Shown here: piece after piece, positions 32,796-39,017 of the stretch
How the letters are laid out: the number at the start of each line of letters is the position of its first letter
How positions within the stretch are numbered: position 1 is the stretch's first letter
Source: Acidobacteriota bacterium
Lineage (GTDB): Bacteria; Acidobacteriota; Thermoanaerobaculia; Thermoanaerobaculales; Sulfomarinibacteraceae
NCBI GenBank assembly: GCA_015493585.1
Contig: WGCW01000076.1
Location: 1-51,885 of the forward strand
DNA length: 51,885 nucleotides
Direction of reading: 5' to 3'
Made by a program: the position numbers and the translations under genes
The notes under the pieces: model-generated
Databases searched by the model: none
The model's input: only the letters and a program-made list of their open reading frames with translations
What the model was told of the DNA's origin: nothing

Positions 32796-32967
32796 GGCCA
32801 ATTCTCCTCCGGAGCGTTCCCGCGATGGCTGCAGGAGGCTGGCCGGATCGCGAAGACGGCGATCAAACGGGGATGGAGCGCCCCATCTGAGAGCCTTGGG
32901 TTTGAGGTTATGATAGGGGAGCCCCGAAAGGGCGGCTCGTTGACGAAACGGGATGGGAGGTAGAACG

Positions 32968-33558
32968 ATGCGGAAACTCGCAGTGGTACCGGTTGGAGCC
33001 ATGATCATTGCCATGACGCTCGTGATGGGCCAAGCTCCGGCCGCATTCGCCGGGAAGAGCGCCAGACAGCTCAAGATCGAGGCAAAGCGGGCGCAGATCG
33101 ACGAGGAGGCGCAGGCGGCGCTCAAGAGGCTATTCGCGATCAACCCGAAGGCGAAAGGTCTCTTTGAACACTCGTACGGCTGGGCGGTCTTTGACAACCT
33201 CAAGCTCGCGTTCGGGATTTCCGGTGGAGGCGGTCACGGCGTTGCGGTCGACATCCGCACCGGGAAACGAATCTACATGAAGATGGGAACGGCCGGAATC
33301 GGGTTCGGGCTTGGCGGCCAGAAGTACCAGGTCATCTTCTTCTTCCAGGACCGGCAGACGTTTGAGGATTTCGTCAACAAGGGTTGGAAGGCGGATGCGG
33401 CGGCCAAGGCTGCGCTGGGTTCGCAAGGGATCAATGCAAAGACGACGTTTACCAACGGGATCGCCGTCTACCAGTTGACGAAGAAGGGCCTGATGCTCAA
33501 CGCGGATATCTCGGGGACGAAATACTGGCGGGACAAGAAGCTGAACCGGGCCGAGTAG
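32968..33558 (+). CDS. SYLF (Ysc84-type) lipid-binding domain protein
   Basis: 196 residues from ATG 32968, with GGGAGG upstream. A signal peptide (MRKLAVVPVGAMIIAMTLVMGQAPAAFA) indicates export. The rest matches the SYLF/Ysc84 domain: ALKRLFAINPKAKGLFEHSYGWAVFDNLKLAFGISGGGGHGVAVDIRTGKRIYMKMGTAGIGFGLGGQKYQVIFFF. The family binds phosphoinositides in eukaryotes; the bacterial role is not defined but is probably envelope-lipid related. Basic C-terminus (YWRDKKLNRAE). The following APC-type gene begins 49 bases later, possibly on the same mRNA. Confidence 0.85.
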   Translation: MRKLAVVPVGAMIIAMTLVMGQAPAAFAGKSARQLKIEAKRAQIDEEAQAALKRLFAINPKAKGLFEHSYGWAVFDNLKLAFGISGGGGHGVAVDIRTGKRIYMKMGTAGIGFGLGGQKYQVIFFFQDRQTFEDFVNKGWKADAAAKAALGSQGINAKTTFTNGIAVYQLTKKGLMLNADISGTKYWRDKKLNRAE

Positions 33559-33607
33559 TGGTGCTGGAACGGGCCGTCCGGTCTGACGCACTCCCGGTTG
33601 GAGGGCG

Positions 33608-35641
33608 ATGAGCACTGACGTCGGCTTCCGGCGAAGTATCGGCCTGTTTCTGGCCGTCATGATCGGGATTGGCGCGATGATGGGCCCCGGCATCTTCGCC
33701 CTGCCAGGCGAAGTGGCAAAGCTCACCGGGCCGCTCGGGATCTTCGTCTACCTGGCCGTCGGGCTGATTACGGTGTTGACGGCGCTCAACTACAGCGAGC
33801 TTGGCGCGGCAATTCCGCTGGCCGGTGGGGGGTACTCGTTCACAAGCCGGACGCAGCCACGGCTGGTGGCCTTTCTCACCGGCTGGTTTTTCTGGATCGG
33901 AAACACGCTCGCCTGCGCGATGTACGGCCTGATCTTTGCGATCACCCTTCAGGGTGCGTTCCTGCCCAGCGCGAGCGTTCCGCTGATTGTGGCTGTCACA
34001 ACCATCCTGTTCTTCCTGCTCAACCTTCGCGGAATCTCGGGCGCGCTCAAGGCGATTACCGTGATGAACCTGATCGAGCTGGCAGTTCTGGCTGGCTTTG
34101 GCGTTCTTGGTGCGTTCCACATCCATGCGGCCTACCTGAGGCCGCTCGCGCCGCTCGGTTTCGGCGGCTTCTTGCCGGCGATGGCGTTGATCTACATCTC
34201 GTACGTTGGGTTCGAGCTGATCACCGTGGCGTCAGAAGAAATCATCGATCCGGGCCGGACGATCCCCCGCGCCATTCTCATCACGGTCGGCGTGGCAACC
34301 GTGATCTATGCCGGCGTCGTGTTGGTGATGATGGGTACGACGCGCTCCACAGCGCTTGCAGGCACCGACGTTCCATTCATCTTCGTCTCGGCGAGGATTT
34401 TTGGCTCGTGGGGACGGTGGGCGGCGGTCGTTGCGACGATCATGGCCAGCCTCTCTGCATTCGTGGTCTCACTCGGGGCGAGCGCTCGCGTCCTGTACGC
34501 ACTTGGCCGGGACGGGCACGTGCCCCGTGCGTTTGCCAAGCTGCATCCACGTTTCCAAACGCCGGCCCTGGCCCTTGAAGTGTGCGCCGGCATCGTGATC
34601 GTGTTCGGTTCCTCGGGCATTGTCAAGTTCGTGGCATCTCTCAGCGATTTTGGGTACCTGATGGGGATCGGGGTGGTCAATCTGTCCGTGATCGCCCTGC
34701 ATCGCAAGATGCCGAACCTGCTCCGCCCGTTCCGGCCGGGCTTCTACCCCTGGCTGCCGGTGCTCGGGGCGATGTCGTGCTGGGCGTTCGTGCCGGCGTT
34801 AGAAGCGAGGAGCTTTGCGCTGGGCGCTGCGTTGACGGTGGCTGGGATCGGCGTCTTCCTGGCGAGGCCGAGCAACAGGGTCGAGCTGCTTGGGTTGCCC
34901 CCGCGCGTTGAGCGGTGGACCCGCCAACAGCTCGAAAGACTGAGGAGGAAAAAGATGCGAGTGCTCATTATCGGTGGCGGTACGCTGGCTAAGAACATTG
35001 CGGCCCGGCTAACGGCGCACGACGAGCTGCAGATGCTCGTGCGTTCCGCCGAGCACCAGGTGACGTTTGTCGAGGAAGATCCTGCGCGGTGCGCCGAGCT
35101 GCAAAAGCGGTTTGCGGTACCGGTGTTCGAGGGGGACGGGACCAAGCGGGAGATTCTTGAGCAGGTTGGCCTCGACAACGTCGACGTCGCCATCGCCGCC
35201 GACCAGGATGACGGCCGGAACGTGATCGCCGCGCTCCAGGCGCATCGCCTTGGGATCGGGAAGGTGATCGCTGTGGTGTTCGATCCCGATTACGTACCAC
35301 TGTTGCAGGAGGAGGGGATCATCTCCCTGAGCGCTCCCAAGGCAACGGCCTCGATGGTGGAGAGCATCCTCGACCGTCCAGGCGTGGCCGATCTTTTTGA
35401 GATCGGCTCCGGCGTTGCCACACTGGTCAGCGTCATGATTCCGGAGGATGGACAGATCGCTGGCACGGCCATCCGCGACCTGAAGCTTCCCGAGGAGTGC
35501 GTGATTGCCGCCATCATTCGTGGCAAGAAGTTTGTCGTTCCGCACGGAAAGACCATCATCGAAGGCGGTGACGAGGTCGTGCTCGTCGGTCCTCCGGGGC
35601 CCGTCAAGAACGCCCGGGACCTCCTCGCCCTCCACACATAA
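33608..35641 (+). CDS. APC-superfamily permease fused to a TrkA-type RCK module
   Basis: 677 residues from ATG 33608, with TTGGAGGGCG upstream. Residues about 8-430 form a 12-helix APC permease: MIGIGAMMGPGIFALPGE is the usual glycine-rich helix 1, and ISYVGFELITVASEEI matches helix 6 of the family. A basic linker (RQQLERLRRKK) leads to residues 450-677. These are a TrkA-N domain (MRVLIIGGGTLAKNIAARL, VEEDPARCAEL, VPVFEGDGTKREIL, AADQDDGRNVIAAL) plus a TrkA-C domain (GSGVATLVSVMIPEDGQIAGTAIRDLKL ... IIEGGDEVVLVG). RCK modules gate K+ transporters by binding nucleotides. Known APC members carry K+ or amino acids. Substrate here is unknown; regulated cation/amino-acid uptake is inferred. A ribosome-binding site lies inside the gene before codon 450. 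Confidence 0.85.
   Translation: MSTDVGFRRSIGLFLAVMIGIGAMMGPGIFALPGEVAKLTGPLGIFVYLAVGLITVLTALNYSELGAAIPLAGGGYSFTSRTQPRLVAFLTGWFFWIGNTLACAMYGLIFAITLQGAFLPSASVPLIVAVTTILFFLLNLRGISGALKAITVMNLIELAVLAGFGVLGAFHIHAAYLRPLAPLGFGGFLPAMALIYISYVGFELITVASEEIIDPGRTIPRAILITVGVATVIYAGVVLVMMGTTRSTALAGTDVPFIFVSARIFGSWGRWAAVVATIMASLSAFVVSLGASARVLYALGRDGHVPRAFAKLHPRFQTPALALEVCAGIVIVFGSSGIVKFVASLSDFGYLMGIGVVNLSVIALHRKMPNLLRPFRPGFYPWLPVLGAMSCWAFVPALEARSFALGAALTVAGIGVFLARPSNRVELLGLPPRVERWTRQQLERLRRKKMRVLIIGGGTLAKNIAARLTAHDELQMLVRSAEHQVTFVEEDPARCAELQKRFAVPVFEGDGTKREILEQVGLDNVDVAIAADQDDGRNVIAALQAHRLGIGKVIAVVFDPDYVPLLQEEGIISLSAPKATASMVESILDRPGVADLFEIGSGVATLVSVMIPEDGQIAGTAIRDLKLPEECVIAAIIRGKKFVVPHGKTIIEGGDEVVLVGPPGPVKNARDLLALHT
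34942..35641 (+). other. Internal ribosome-binding site and in-frame start for a free RCK subunit
   Basis: GAGGAGG (34942-34948) lies 6 bases before ATG 34955, within the codons for the linker LRRKK. This ATG is codon 450 of the APC-RCK fusion and the exact first residue of the TrkA-N domain. Translation from it would give 228 residues (TrkA-N plus TrkA-C), the size of free KtrA/TrkA-type subunits. It may be a functional internal start or the fossil of two once-separate genes. Confidence 0.55.
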
Positions 35642-35732
35642 GCGGGCGGGAGCGCTGTGGTGATCTTCTCCGGGAGCATATCCCGGCTCAACGGCGTGCG
35701 GCTCTTTCCCGTACAATTTTGTGGAGGCCGTC

Positions 35733-38700
35733 ATGCATAACAAGAAAACGATGCGCACCGCCGCGACGATGTTCATTGGAGCGCTGGCCGGACTGTCGAT
35801 GCTCTGCGGGACCGCTGGCGCGGCTGGTCCGTGGACTGTTTCGCTCGCACAACCGGATACCTGGCGCTTCACGGCGGTGGCGTGGGGTCAGGGCCGCTAC
35901 ACCGCCGCAACCTCTGACGGCATCATCGCGATCAGCACCGATGGAGCGAGCTGGCGGCCGGTCGCCGCTGACAGCGGCTGGCGTATCCGGAAGATCGCAT
36001 TCGGGCCCGGTGGATGGGTCGCCGCCGGGTGGTACTGGGTTGCGGACGGCTATACCCCTGGGCTCATTCTGAAGAGCCCCGACGGGATTCGTTGGAGCGA
36101 GGCGTTACGGTCGGATCAGCTTGACGATCCGGTGGCCATTGACGCTTCTGGAGGTGTGTGGCGGATCTTCTGCGGTGACTCCGTCTGGCGAAGCACAGAC
36201 GGAGCTCACTGGACCTGCAACGCGTTCGTGTTCGACGGGAGCGCGATCACAGTCGATGCGGTCGTCCGGTGGCACGGAGGATGGGTGGCGGCTGGCACGG
36301 CCGGTCATGGCTCGCACGATTCCAGCGGCTGGATCGGAACCAGCTCCGGCGGTGTGACGTGGAGGACCCTCGCGACTCCCGAACACGCATTCTCGTGCCT
36401 GACGGCGAGCCCGGCGAGGCTCGTCGCCGGAGGGGATGGCATCGTGGCGTGGAGCGACGATGGCGCATCGTGGATCGTTGGGGACGTGCCGAACGGCGCT
36501 GGCGTGCATCTGACAGATCTTCTTTGGACCGGGAACCGGTTCGTTGCCATCGGGGCACAACCGCGCGCCGGTTCGAGCGAAGGCTCCGGAGTGATTCTGA
36601 TCAGTGCGGACGGCACAGCCTGGACGTACGCGACCGTGGATCCATTCGAGGACCGGATCGGGCTTCCCATCGGGGAGCTTCATGCTCTGGCGCGGTCTCA
36701 ACCGGGAATGATCGCCGCCGGCGACCAGACGGTCATGGTCAGCGGCGACGGCGAGAGGTGGGAACATCGAGTCTTTGGGTTTCCAACCCAGATGGATCAG
36801 CTTGTCCCTTTTGGAACGACGCTGCTCGCAATCCAAACGGAGCTCCCGCCTGGTCAGGATCCTTCGAACGTGTCGCATGAAGCGTTGCTCTCCCAGGACG
36901 GAATTGACTGGTTGGAACCTGGCGCACCTACCATTGAGCCCACAGGCTCGGCGTGGCGGTTCATCGCTCATGGGGAGCTCCTCTTCGGCTTCGAGCGGTA
37001 CACCGGCCGGTCGGTTGCGGTCCGGACGTCTGATGGCCAGTGGCAGACGGCATCGTTGCCCGCGGCTTCCGGCTCGTTTCCCGCCGCTGCGGCATGGGGA
37101 ACGCCCGGGATCGTTGTTGTGGAGACCAATGGGTTGATCGATTTCAGCACCGGTGGTCTGACGTGGACGGCAAGAACCATTCCAGGCCTGCACGTCTTCT
37201 GGCAGAACGTCGTATGGACGGGGTCGATGTTTCTCGCGATCGGCTCACAGGGAGAAACTGCCGTCAGTTTCAATGGGCTCGAGTGGGCTGTCCGGCAGGG
37301 CGCAGGCAATGCACTGGATGCCAGCCACGTCGCCACAAACGGAGAGGTAACGGTCGCCGTGGGAAGGTTTGGGTCGCTTGCCTGGACCGTCGATGGACGG
37401 CAGTGGACCTTCGTTGCAACGGGGATCAGCCGGGATTTCAACGCCGTGCGGTGGACTGGGAACCGGTTCGTTGCCGTAGGCGACAATGGGATCGTGCTCG
37501 AAAGCAGCGATGGGCGGGTCTGGTCCGCGGGTGAGAAGCCATCGTTGGCGGTCAACCTCCGTGGCGTGGCAGACGCCGGGGGACGTACGGTCGCTGTTGG
37601 CGACGGCCCAACGATTCAGGTACACCTTCCGTCCGTTCCGGACGCGGCCGGTCCGGTGGCGTACCGGACGGTCATTCCCGCTGCTGCACATTCTCCGGGG
37701 GCCAACGGGTCGTTCTGGAACACCAACGTGACCCTGTCCAGCCGCAGCGGCCGGCCGGTGCTCGCGTGGCTGAGGTGGATCCGGCAGTCCGCTCCGCCGG
37801 TGGTGCGTCCGTTCGTCGTGTCCGGCCACCTGGTACTCGATGACGTGGTGGCGACGCTCTTCGGTGCGGACTCCGGGTCCGGCGCGCTGATCGTCGACTC
37901 GGATGCGGCTCTTGCCGCCACGAGCCGGACCGCGGCCCAAGCCGCCGGGCAGGGCCCGGGCCAGGTGTTGCCGGGTATCCCGCCGCTTTCCGGAGCGGCG
38001 CCCGCCGTCTTGCCTGGATTGAGAGGGGGACCGTCGTTCAGAACCAACATCGGACTGGCCAACGTCAGCGCCGCCGGTGAGCACGTGACGGTCGAACTGT
38101 ACGATGGCAGCGGTGTGCGGATTCGTACGCGCGAGATCGATCTCGACGCGTGGCGGTCGGTGCAGCTCAACCGTGTTCTCAAAGGCCGGGCCGCTACGGG
38201 CGCGGTGTGGGCCCGGGTGACGGCGGATGGCCCGTTTTCGGCGTACGCATCCGTCATCGACAATGGAACGAACGATGCAGCGACGGTGCTGCCGGCGACG
38301 GTGACATCGGACCCGCTCGTGATTCCGGCGGCCGCTCACACGCCGGGGTACAACGGCGCTCTCTGGCGCACGAGCCTGGATCTCGTCAACCCGGGAGACG
38401 CGCCGGCCGAGGCGGCGCTCGAGCTCCTGACGCCAGAGGGCGGTACGATTCCAGGCGGTTCGGTCGAGCTTGGGCCGGGAACGGCGGTGCGGATCGATGA
38501 CGTACTGGCGGCACGTTTCCCAGGCCATACCGCCGGCGCCATCCGGATCACGCCGTCATCCGGAACGATTGCAGCGTGGAGCCGCACCTTCGATCTCACC
38601 GCGTCCGGCACGCTGGGGCAGGGGATCCCGGCCGTTCCCGGGAAGGATGCCTCCATGCCGGCGGGTGGCTCGTTGATGCTGGCTGGTCTCAGCGGCGGGC

Positions 38701-39017
38701 CAGCGGCATCCGGGTGGTTCCACACCAACCTTGGTCTGGTCAACACCGGCGATGCCCCGGCGAAGCTGAGGGTGACGATCGGCGTGGAAACCGCCGTCGC
38801 CTTCGACAGGTTCGTGACCGTTCCAGCGAACGGATGGATGCAGTTGCTCAAGGTTTTTCGAGACGTGACCGTTGGGCCAGTTGCCGGGGGGTGGATCAAG
38901 GTCGCGGTGACGGGTGGATCGGATCGGGTGCTGGCCTGGGCCTCGGTCATCGACGACGGGTCCGGAGACCCCTCGTTCCTAACCGCCTGGCAGGTCCCTG
39001 CCGCTCCCGATGAGTAA
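35733..39017 (+). CDS. Large exported protein: S-x-D-G-x-x-W propeller repeats plus two copies of a shared exported domain
   Basis: 1094 residues from ATG 35733 (GGAGG at 35723). A signal peptide ends near AGAAG. Residues about 40-600 carry about twelve Asp-box-like motifs (ISTDGASW, KSPDGIRW, RSTDGAHW, WSDDGASW, ISADGTAW, VSGDGERW, LSQDGIDW, ESSDGRVW), which predict one or two beta-propellers as in sialidase/BNR-type proteins. No catalytic residues are recognisable. Residues about 645-860 and 863-1090 are two copies of the domain found in the 12410 and 14865 genes (VIPAAAHSPGANGSFW..., VIPAAAHTPGYNGALWRTSLDLVNPG..., FRTNIGLANVSA, FHTNLGLVNTGD, AYASVIDN). Probably secreted or surface-exposed; binding function unknown. 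TACAAT lies at 35712-35717. Confidence 0.75.
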   Translation: MHNKKTMRTAATMFIGALAGLSMLCGTAGAAGPWTVSLAQPDTWRFTAVAWGQGRYTAATSDGIIAISTDGASWRPVAADSGWRIRKIAFGPGGWVAAGWYWVADGYTPGLILKSPDGIRWSEALRSDQLDDPVAIDASGGVWRIFCGDSVWRSTDGAHWTCNAFVFDGSAITVDAVVRWHGGWVAAGTAGHGSHDSSGWIGTSSGGVTWRTLATPEHAFSCLTASPARLVAGGDGIVAWSDDGASWIVGDVPNGAGVHLTDLLWTGNRFVAIGAQPRAGSSEGSGVILISADGTAWTYATVDPFEDRIGLPIGELHALARSQPGMIAAGDQTVMVSGDGERWEHRVFGFPTQMDQLVPFGTTLLAIQTELPPGQDPSNVSHEALLSQDGIDWLEPGAPTIEPTGSAWRFIAHGELLFGFERYTGRSVAVRTSDGQWQTASLPAASGSFPAAAAWGTPGIVVVETNGLIDFSTGGLTWTARTIPGLHVFWQNVVWTGSMFLAIGSQGETAVSFNGLEWAVRQGAGNALDASHVATNGEVTVAVGRFGSLAWTVDGRQWTFVATGISRDFNAVRWTGNRFVAVGDNGIVLESSDGRVWSAGEKPSLAVNLRGVADAGGRTVAVGDGPTIQVHLPSVPDAAGPVAYRTVIPAAAHSPGANGSFWNTNVTLSSRSGRPVLAWLRWIRQSAPPVVRPFVVSGHLVLDDVVATLFGADSGSGALIVDSDAALAATSRTAAQAAGQGPGQVLPGIPPLSGAAPAVLPGLRGGPSFRTNIGLANVSAAGEHVTVELYDGSGVRIRTREIDLDAWRSVQLNRVLKGRAATGAVWARVTADGPFSAYASVIDNGTNDAATVLPATVTSDPLVIPAAAHTPGYNGALWRTSLDLVNPGDAPAEAALELLTPEGGTIPGGSVELGPGTAVRIDDVLAARFPGHTAGAIRITPSSGTIAAWSRTFDLTASGTLGQGIPAVPGKDASMPAGGSLMLAGLSGGPAASGWFHTNLGLVNTGDAPAKLRVTIGVETAVAFDRFVTVPANGWMQLLKVFRDVTVGPVAGGWIKVAVTGGSDRVLAWASVIDDGSGDPSFLTAWQVPAAPDE

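Follow-up and report, generated by a model that had tools for sequence, protein, structure and literature searches.

The fused gene and its surroundings

The window (the whole stretch of DNA that was analyzed) comprises 51,885 nucleotides from an Acidobacteriota bacterium, and all coordinates refer to this stretch. On the + strand at 33608–35641 it carries an open reading frame for a protein of 677 amino acids, in which a complete TrkA-N/TrkA-C (RCK) module lies C-terminal to an APC amino acid-type permease. Pfam assigns residues 11–395 to AA_permease_2 (PF13520, 6.3e-36), residues 452–571 to TrkA_N (PF02254, 7.8e-19) and residues 606–673 to TrkA_C (PF02080, 1.9e-14). The ATG at 33608 is preceded by a main-start ribosome-binding sequence, GGAGG (33600–33604, + strand), with an anti-Shine-Dalgarno (anti-SD) pairing energy of −8.7 kcal/mol.

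The permease part has a LeuT-type fold whose top Foldseek match is 6f34 (GkApcT; TMt 0.82), and GkApcT (6f34/5oqt) is the nearest solved permease by both sequence and fold. By domain match and fold the protein is an APC-superfamily permease; amino acid transport is only inferred from sequence alone, and substrate and coupling remain open. An AlphaFold2 model was built with 27 relatives in the input (mean pLDDT 80.6). In this model the last membrane helix is predicted to end near residue 418, residues 421–446 form a linker helix, and residues 449–455 form the first RCK beta strand. The linker as a whole, residues 421–449, is encoded at 34868–34954 (+ strand). The RCK nucleotide motif GxGxxG has the consensus GGGxQG among relatives and reads GGGTLA in the window protein, with the last Gly replaced by Ala461.

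Two features of the membrane part were noted separately. Glu157 in TM5 (34076–34078) is invariant in 59/59 relatives (alignment A2). It aligns with TM5 Lys191 of GkApcT and with Lys154 of BasC (a Na2-site surrogate), and a Lys to Glu change at that position cripples BasC and Asc-1 (PMC6472337). TM1 carries GPG, with Pro27 present in 56/56 relatives. Taken together, Glu157 and the TM1 GPG suggest an unusual coupling ion or substrate, although this too rests on inference from sequence. Immediately upstream of the fusion gene, on the same strand, lies a gene for a Ysc84/SYLF-domain protein (32953–33558). Downstream, 35721–39017 holds a 1098-residue open reading frame whose product looks secreted and contains repeats; it has no Pfam match at E 0.001.

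A probable internal start site at the domain border

Within the fusion gene the sequence at the site reads agactGAGGAGGaaaaagATGcgagtgctc. The Shine-Dalgarno sequence GAGGAGG (34942–34948, + strand; anti-SD energy −12.1 kcal/mol) is followed by six nucleotides, AAAAAG, and then by an ATG (34955–34957, + strand) in frame with the 33608–35641 reading frame. The final base of the Leu445 codon (CTG), together with Arg446 and Arg447, both AGG, spells GAGGAGG; the ATG encodes Met450, which sits in the first RCK beta strand at the border of the TrkA-N domain. The first-pass annotation had placed GAGGAGG six bases before an ATG at 34955 inside a 677-residue permease gene, at the first TrkA-N residue, and had given the resulting product 228 residues. 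These claims held, on direct reading of the sequence and on the position of Met450 just ahead of TrkA_N (452–571).

Just 0.5% of codon positions in the window gene match the anti-SD pairing strength of the internal site, and when the codons ahead of the ATG are resampled synonymously, only 1% of the draws reach it. The surrounding 111 nucleotides fold more weakly than shuffled sequences (z 1.53). A separate internal promoter is unsupported, no sigma-70-like promoter having been found at 33300–36000; note that this is a weak test.

Distribution of fused relatives

A scan of 84,980 species returned nearly 60 fused relatives spanning the junction. Junction DNA was compared between the window gene and 58 further fused relatives, about 56–69% identical and from several phyla, giving 59 sequences, of which 35 were non-redundant (<85% mutual identity). 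The identical pairs L038/L039 and L009/L056 were each counted once, and two of the 35, L042 (frame break) and L091 (cut by the contig end), entered the junction comparison only. L042, L087 and L088 carry frame breaks, which fall in the membrane part and not at the junction. According to the submitters' own labels, the relatives belong to Acidobacteria, Deltaproteobacteria/Desulfobacterales, Myxococcales, Gemmatimonadota, Planctomycetota, Latescibacterota, SAR324 and Bacteroidetes/Rhodothermales/Balneolaceae; cultured members include Salinibacter altiplanensis (L083), Rhodohalobacter sulfatireducens (L066) and Longimonas halophila (L088).

The APC-RCK fusion is thus a coherent family across many phyla, though rare within its order, where it occurs in 2/37 genomes; it was not found in the sole other genome of the genus. 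The suggestion that APC-TrkA fusions are uncommon is therefore borne out only locally. Every full-length relative found is fused, with no split-gene relatives (permease and RCK separate) among them, and no viral relatives of the fusion gene were found. There is no general conserved gene neighborhood, five loci at most sharing any neighbor. In five loci (L069, L070, L072, L086 and L089) an ion-channel-related gene (Ion_trans_2, with a filter-like GFGD) lies no more than 3 kb from the fusion gene; among these neighbors, the Pfam scan covered just the N-terminal portion of the L070 copy. In L042 and L087, related proteins of ∼340–350 residues, which by their look and without a domain scan we take to be DHH-phosphoesterase-like, are encoded directly downstream of the fusion gene, on opposite strands between the two loci. 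In L095 (SAR324), from 6001 on, the open frame extends to 948 residues, ∼270 past the usual end.

Conservation of the methionine and the ribosome-binding sequence

Met450 is kept in 59/59 relatives. Residue 450 is the gene's best Shine-Dalgarno column and, among 14 conserved ATG columns, the sole one with such a sequence. A core of the GGAG, GAGG or AGGA type occurs at standard spacing in nearly all relatives, ending 6–7 nucleotides upstream of the ATG in most. At positions −11 to −8 (GGAG) the counts are G 31/33, G 31/33, A 33/33 and G 30/33, and the linker around this near-invariant tetranucleotide is otherwise variable. The base at −10 is a third codon position, and the core is written CGG-AGG, TGG-AGG, AGG-AGG or AAG-AGG depending on the relative. 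GGAGG is kept while the encoded residues vary (RR, WR, KR); therefore it is the nucleotides, not the amino acids, that are kept. The exceptions, L040 (labelled Bacteroidetes) and L054 (labelled Cyclobacteriaceae), retain the methionine and an A/G-rich sequence without GGAG or a good Shine-Dalgarno. Bacteroidetes in general depend little on Shine-Dalgarno pairing.

Selection on synonymous positions

Codon usage at the site was compared with that of the rest of the gene. The Arg447 codon is AGA or AGG in all 32 non-redundant relatives that have Arg there, versus 14.5% elsewhere in the same genes. Counting Arg codons at −4/−3 before the ATG, 47/51 are AGA/AGG versus 7.7 expected. At −1, by contrast, 11/12 Arg codons are CGN, and the AGR codons at 447 therefore do not reflect a general preference. 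When 42 Arg columns are ranked by AGR share, residue 447 comes first and 446 second. Residue 447 shows zero changes between AGR and CGN on the tree, and the third base of codon 446 requires 2 parsimony changes versus 7–15 at adjacent third bases.

At the junction the mean anti-SD pairing energy is −8.6 kcal/mol; under synonymous resampling it is −3.1, and the other internal ATGs, 670 in all, average −2.1. Across the 35 non-redundant relatives, resampling gave a mean anti-SD z of −12.6, and pairing at −8 or below was seen in 27/35 versus 2.6 expected (maximum 9 in 2000 runs). Codons 444–450 form the gene's peak window of excess synonymous identity (z 3.9); the observed/expected ratio is 2.6 at codons 446/447 versus 1.07 for codon identity overall. 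Note that z-scores correct only partly for shared ancestry; the signal holds with only 24, 13 or 5 divergent members retained. In 31/33 genes the anti-SD pairs more strongly with the internal site than with the assumed main start, the exceptions being L041 and L054. These main starts were assigned from the alignment, and some may be wrong.

In 34/34 cases the mRNA around the internal ATG folds less than the average for the gene (mean z +1.14), and in 88% it folds less than under synonymous resampling. Open mRNA is as expected for true starts.

These data show that the internal ribosome-binding sequence is selected as nucleotides and not as amino acids. The first-pass annotation had proposed that the internal start yields a free RCK subunit, with conservation of the purine-rich site and of the methionine among homologues as a check. 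That check, now run, gave the opposite of a refuting outcome, with Met in 59/59 and the core in nearly all. Selection supports the start; the free protein and its assembly into rings are still inferred.

Predicted free RCK subunit

The predicted second product, encoded at 34955–35641 (+ strand), is a free RCK subunit of 228 residues containing TrkA-N and TrkA-C. Predicted alone, the module from Met450 forms a complete RCK module (pLDDT 82.5). Its closest folds are TM1088B (3l4b, 1.4e-15; part of an octameric two-subunit TrkA ring), TrkA and the MthK RCK. TM-scores are about 0.45–0.6, which we take to reflect the two lobes being set at differing angles. The host's other clear RCK protein (L001), a free TrkA/KtrA-like protein of 219 residues, is an unlikely substitute partner because it lacks significant similarity to the RCK module of the fusion. 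A third Pfam TrkA_N match in the host belongs to what we take to be a dehydrogenase-type protein.

In the proposed mechanism, ribosomes initiating at 33608 would produce the full permease-RCK fusion, and those that use the conserved internal Shine-Dalgarno to initiate at 34955 would produce the RCK module alone, from the same mRNA and in the same frame. A monomeric or dimeric APC permease would bring just one or two RCK modules; free subunits, pairing with fused ones through the RCK dimer and ring interfaces, could complete either a dimer or a ring. The mixed assembly would be a ligand-sensing cytoplasmic complex controlling transport in the manner of MthK. The architecture and the selection on the start signal (Met, ribosome-binding sequence, spacing and open mRNA) are shown. 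That the gene makes a fused transporter together with free RCK subunits that partner it is, we think, very likely, by inference from sequence and analogy with MthK. Use of the start, stability of the product, its joining of the fused protein and the stoichiometry are inferred without protein or ribosome data, as are the ligand (a nucleotide or c-di-AMP) and the transported substrate.

A bolder reading is possible, though less likely than not, in which fused and free RCK subunits from one gene assemble into a mixed ring or dimer that controls an APC-family transporter, perhaps a K+-coupled one, given the invariant Glu157 in TM5 and the K+ channel genes near some relatives' loci. On that reading the protein might not be a plain amino acid permease and could be the first gating-ring-type LeuT-fold transporter, present in many phyla. 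For the main reading, a fused transporter with free RCK partners, two precedents call for caution. In E. coli Kch, removal of a putative internal start left expression and function unchanged (Kuo 2003, cited in PMC2920069), and Kef RCK domains function as dimers without an internal start (PMC2920069).

Alternative explanations

The best-surviving alternative, which we nevertheless regard as unlikely, is a programmed pause. Here the Shine-Dalgarno-like sequence and the AGA/AGG codons would slow the ribosome ∼30 codons past the last membrane helix, aiding insertion or folding without any initiation. In its favor, the distance from that helix (near residue 418) roughly matches the ribosomal exit tunnel in length. 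However, a pause leaves unexplained the invariant Met at a fixed spacing of 6–7 nucleotides and the unusual openness of the mRNA at the ATG, and AGR codons are limited to the positions that build GGAGG, 11/12 Arg codons at −1 being CGN.

It is very improbable, but cannot be excluded, that the free RCK subunit is made and serves elsewhere, for example with another K+ transporter or channel rather than with the fused permease. The K+-channel-related gene with a GFGD filter near the fusion gene in five loci would fit such a role, but this gene is not a general neighbor. Moreover, the free copy necessarily has the same sequence as the module in the fusion, and solved structures show RCK domains dimerizing with their own kind (PMC2920069).

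The remaining possibility, raised in the first-pass annotation, is that the site is a fossil of gene fusion, a ribosome-binding sequence and ATG left from a formerly separate RCK gene with no present role; Met450 does lie exactly at the domain border, where such a gene would have started, but this is very unlikely and the claim failed, because the synonymous positions of the site are conserved (observed/expected 2.6) while those elsewhere are near saturation (1.07), the site persists through amino acid changes (resampling z −12.6), and no full-length relative found is unfused.

RCK rings have so far been described for K+ channels and Trk/Ktr/Kef transporters. If the preferred reading, a fused transporter with free RCK partners, is true, a conserved free-RCK device in an APC-family gene would carry RCK control over to another transporter fold. 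Genome annotations of the fused APC-RCK family would then overlook a second protein product. The gene also illustrates cleanly how an internal start can be detected by comparing synonymous sites among relatives when ribosome data are lacking, and the family offers an independent test system for MthK-type stoichiometry.

Comparison with known systems

No report of APC-RCK fusions or of internal starts within them was found in the literature searched, which included few subscription papers. Several systems resemble the window gene in part. In CTP1L-type endolysins an in-frame internal Shine-Dalgarno yields a free C-terminal domain that joins the full-length protein, and silent changes lower the secondary product (PMC4777826), but these are phage lysins, unrelated to the window protein. 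Internal starts are also known from Ribo-RET surveys (PMC11005335).

KimA, one of several APC-superfamily transporters with a regulatory domain in the cytosolic C terminus, is likewise a LeuT-fold transporter with a fused nucleotide-sensing domain, and forms a domain-swapped dimer (PMC10284832). Its cytosolic domain, however, is PPAT-like and of another fold, and the relevant sections mention no internal product (PMC10284832). GkApcT, a CAT homologue of the APC family, matches the permease part only, and has Lys191 in TM5 where the window protein has Glu157.

The fold of the free module is matched best by TM1088A/TM1088B of Thermotoga maritima (3l4b), and there too one locus gives two RCK proteins by means of an internal ribosome-binding site (PMC4380455). 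Its two open reading frames are distinct, the stop codon of one overlapping the start codon of the other, whereas the window start lies in frame inside one gene whose longer product includes a transporter.

The precedent for the proposed mechanism is the K+ channel MthK of Methanothermobacter, whose gene encodes a membrane protein ending in an RCK module and also, from an internal Met at the domain border, free RCK subunits (PMC9440719, PMC2920069). Its octameric gating ring consists of four RCK domains that are part of the channel protein and four free ones started at Met107 (PMC9440719); single-RCK channels reportedly require such free subunits (PMC3510474). RCK structures of MthK also match the window RCK module. 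Unlike MthK, the window protein has an APC/LeuT-fold permease as its membrane part and not a tetrameric K+ channel pore, and its start is supported by cross-phylum selection rather than by biochemistry. By analogy, the gene would resemble MthK in its dual-product logic without being a member of the MthK channel family. An internal start for RCK proteins is thus already known (MthK Met107; PMC9440719, PMC2920069, PMC3510474); what is new here is its probable occurrence in an APC-family transporter.
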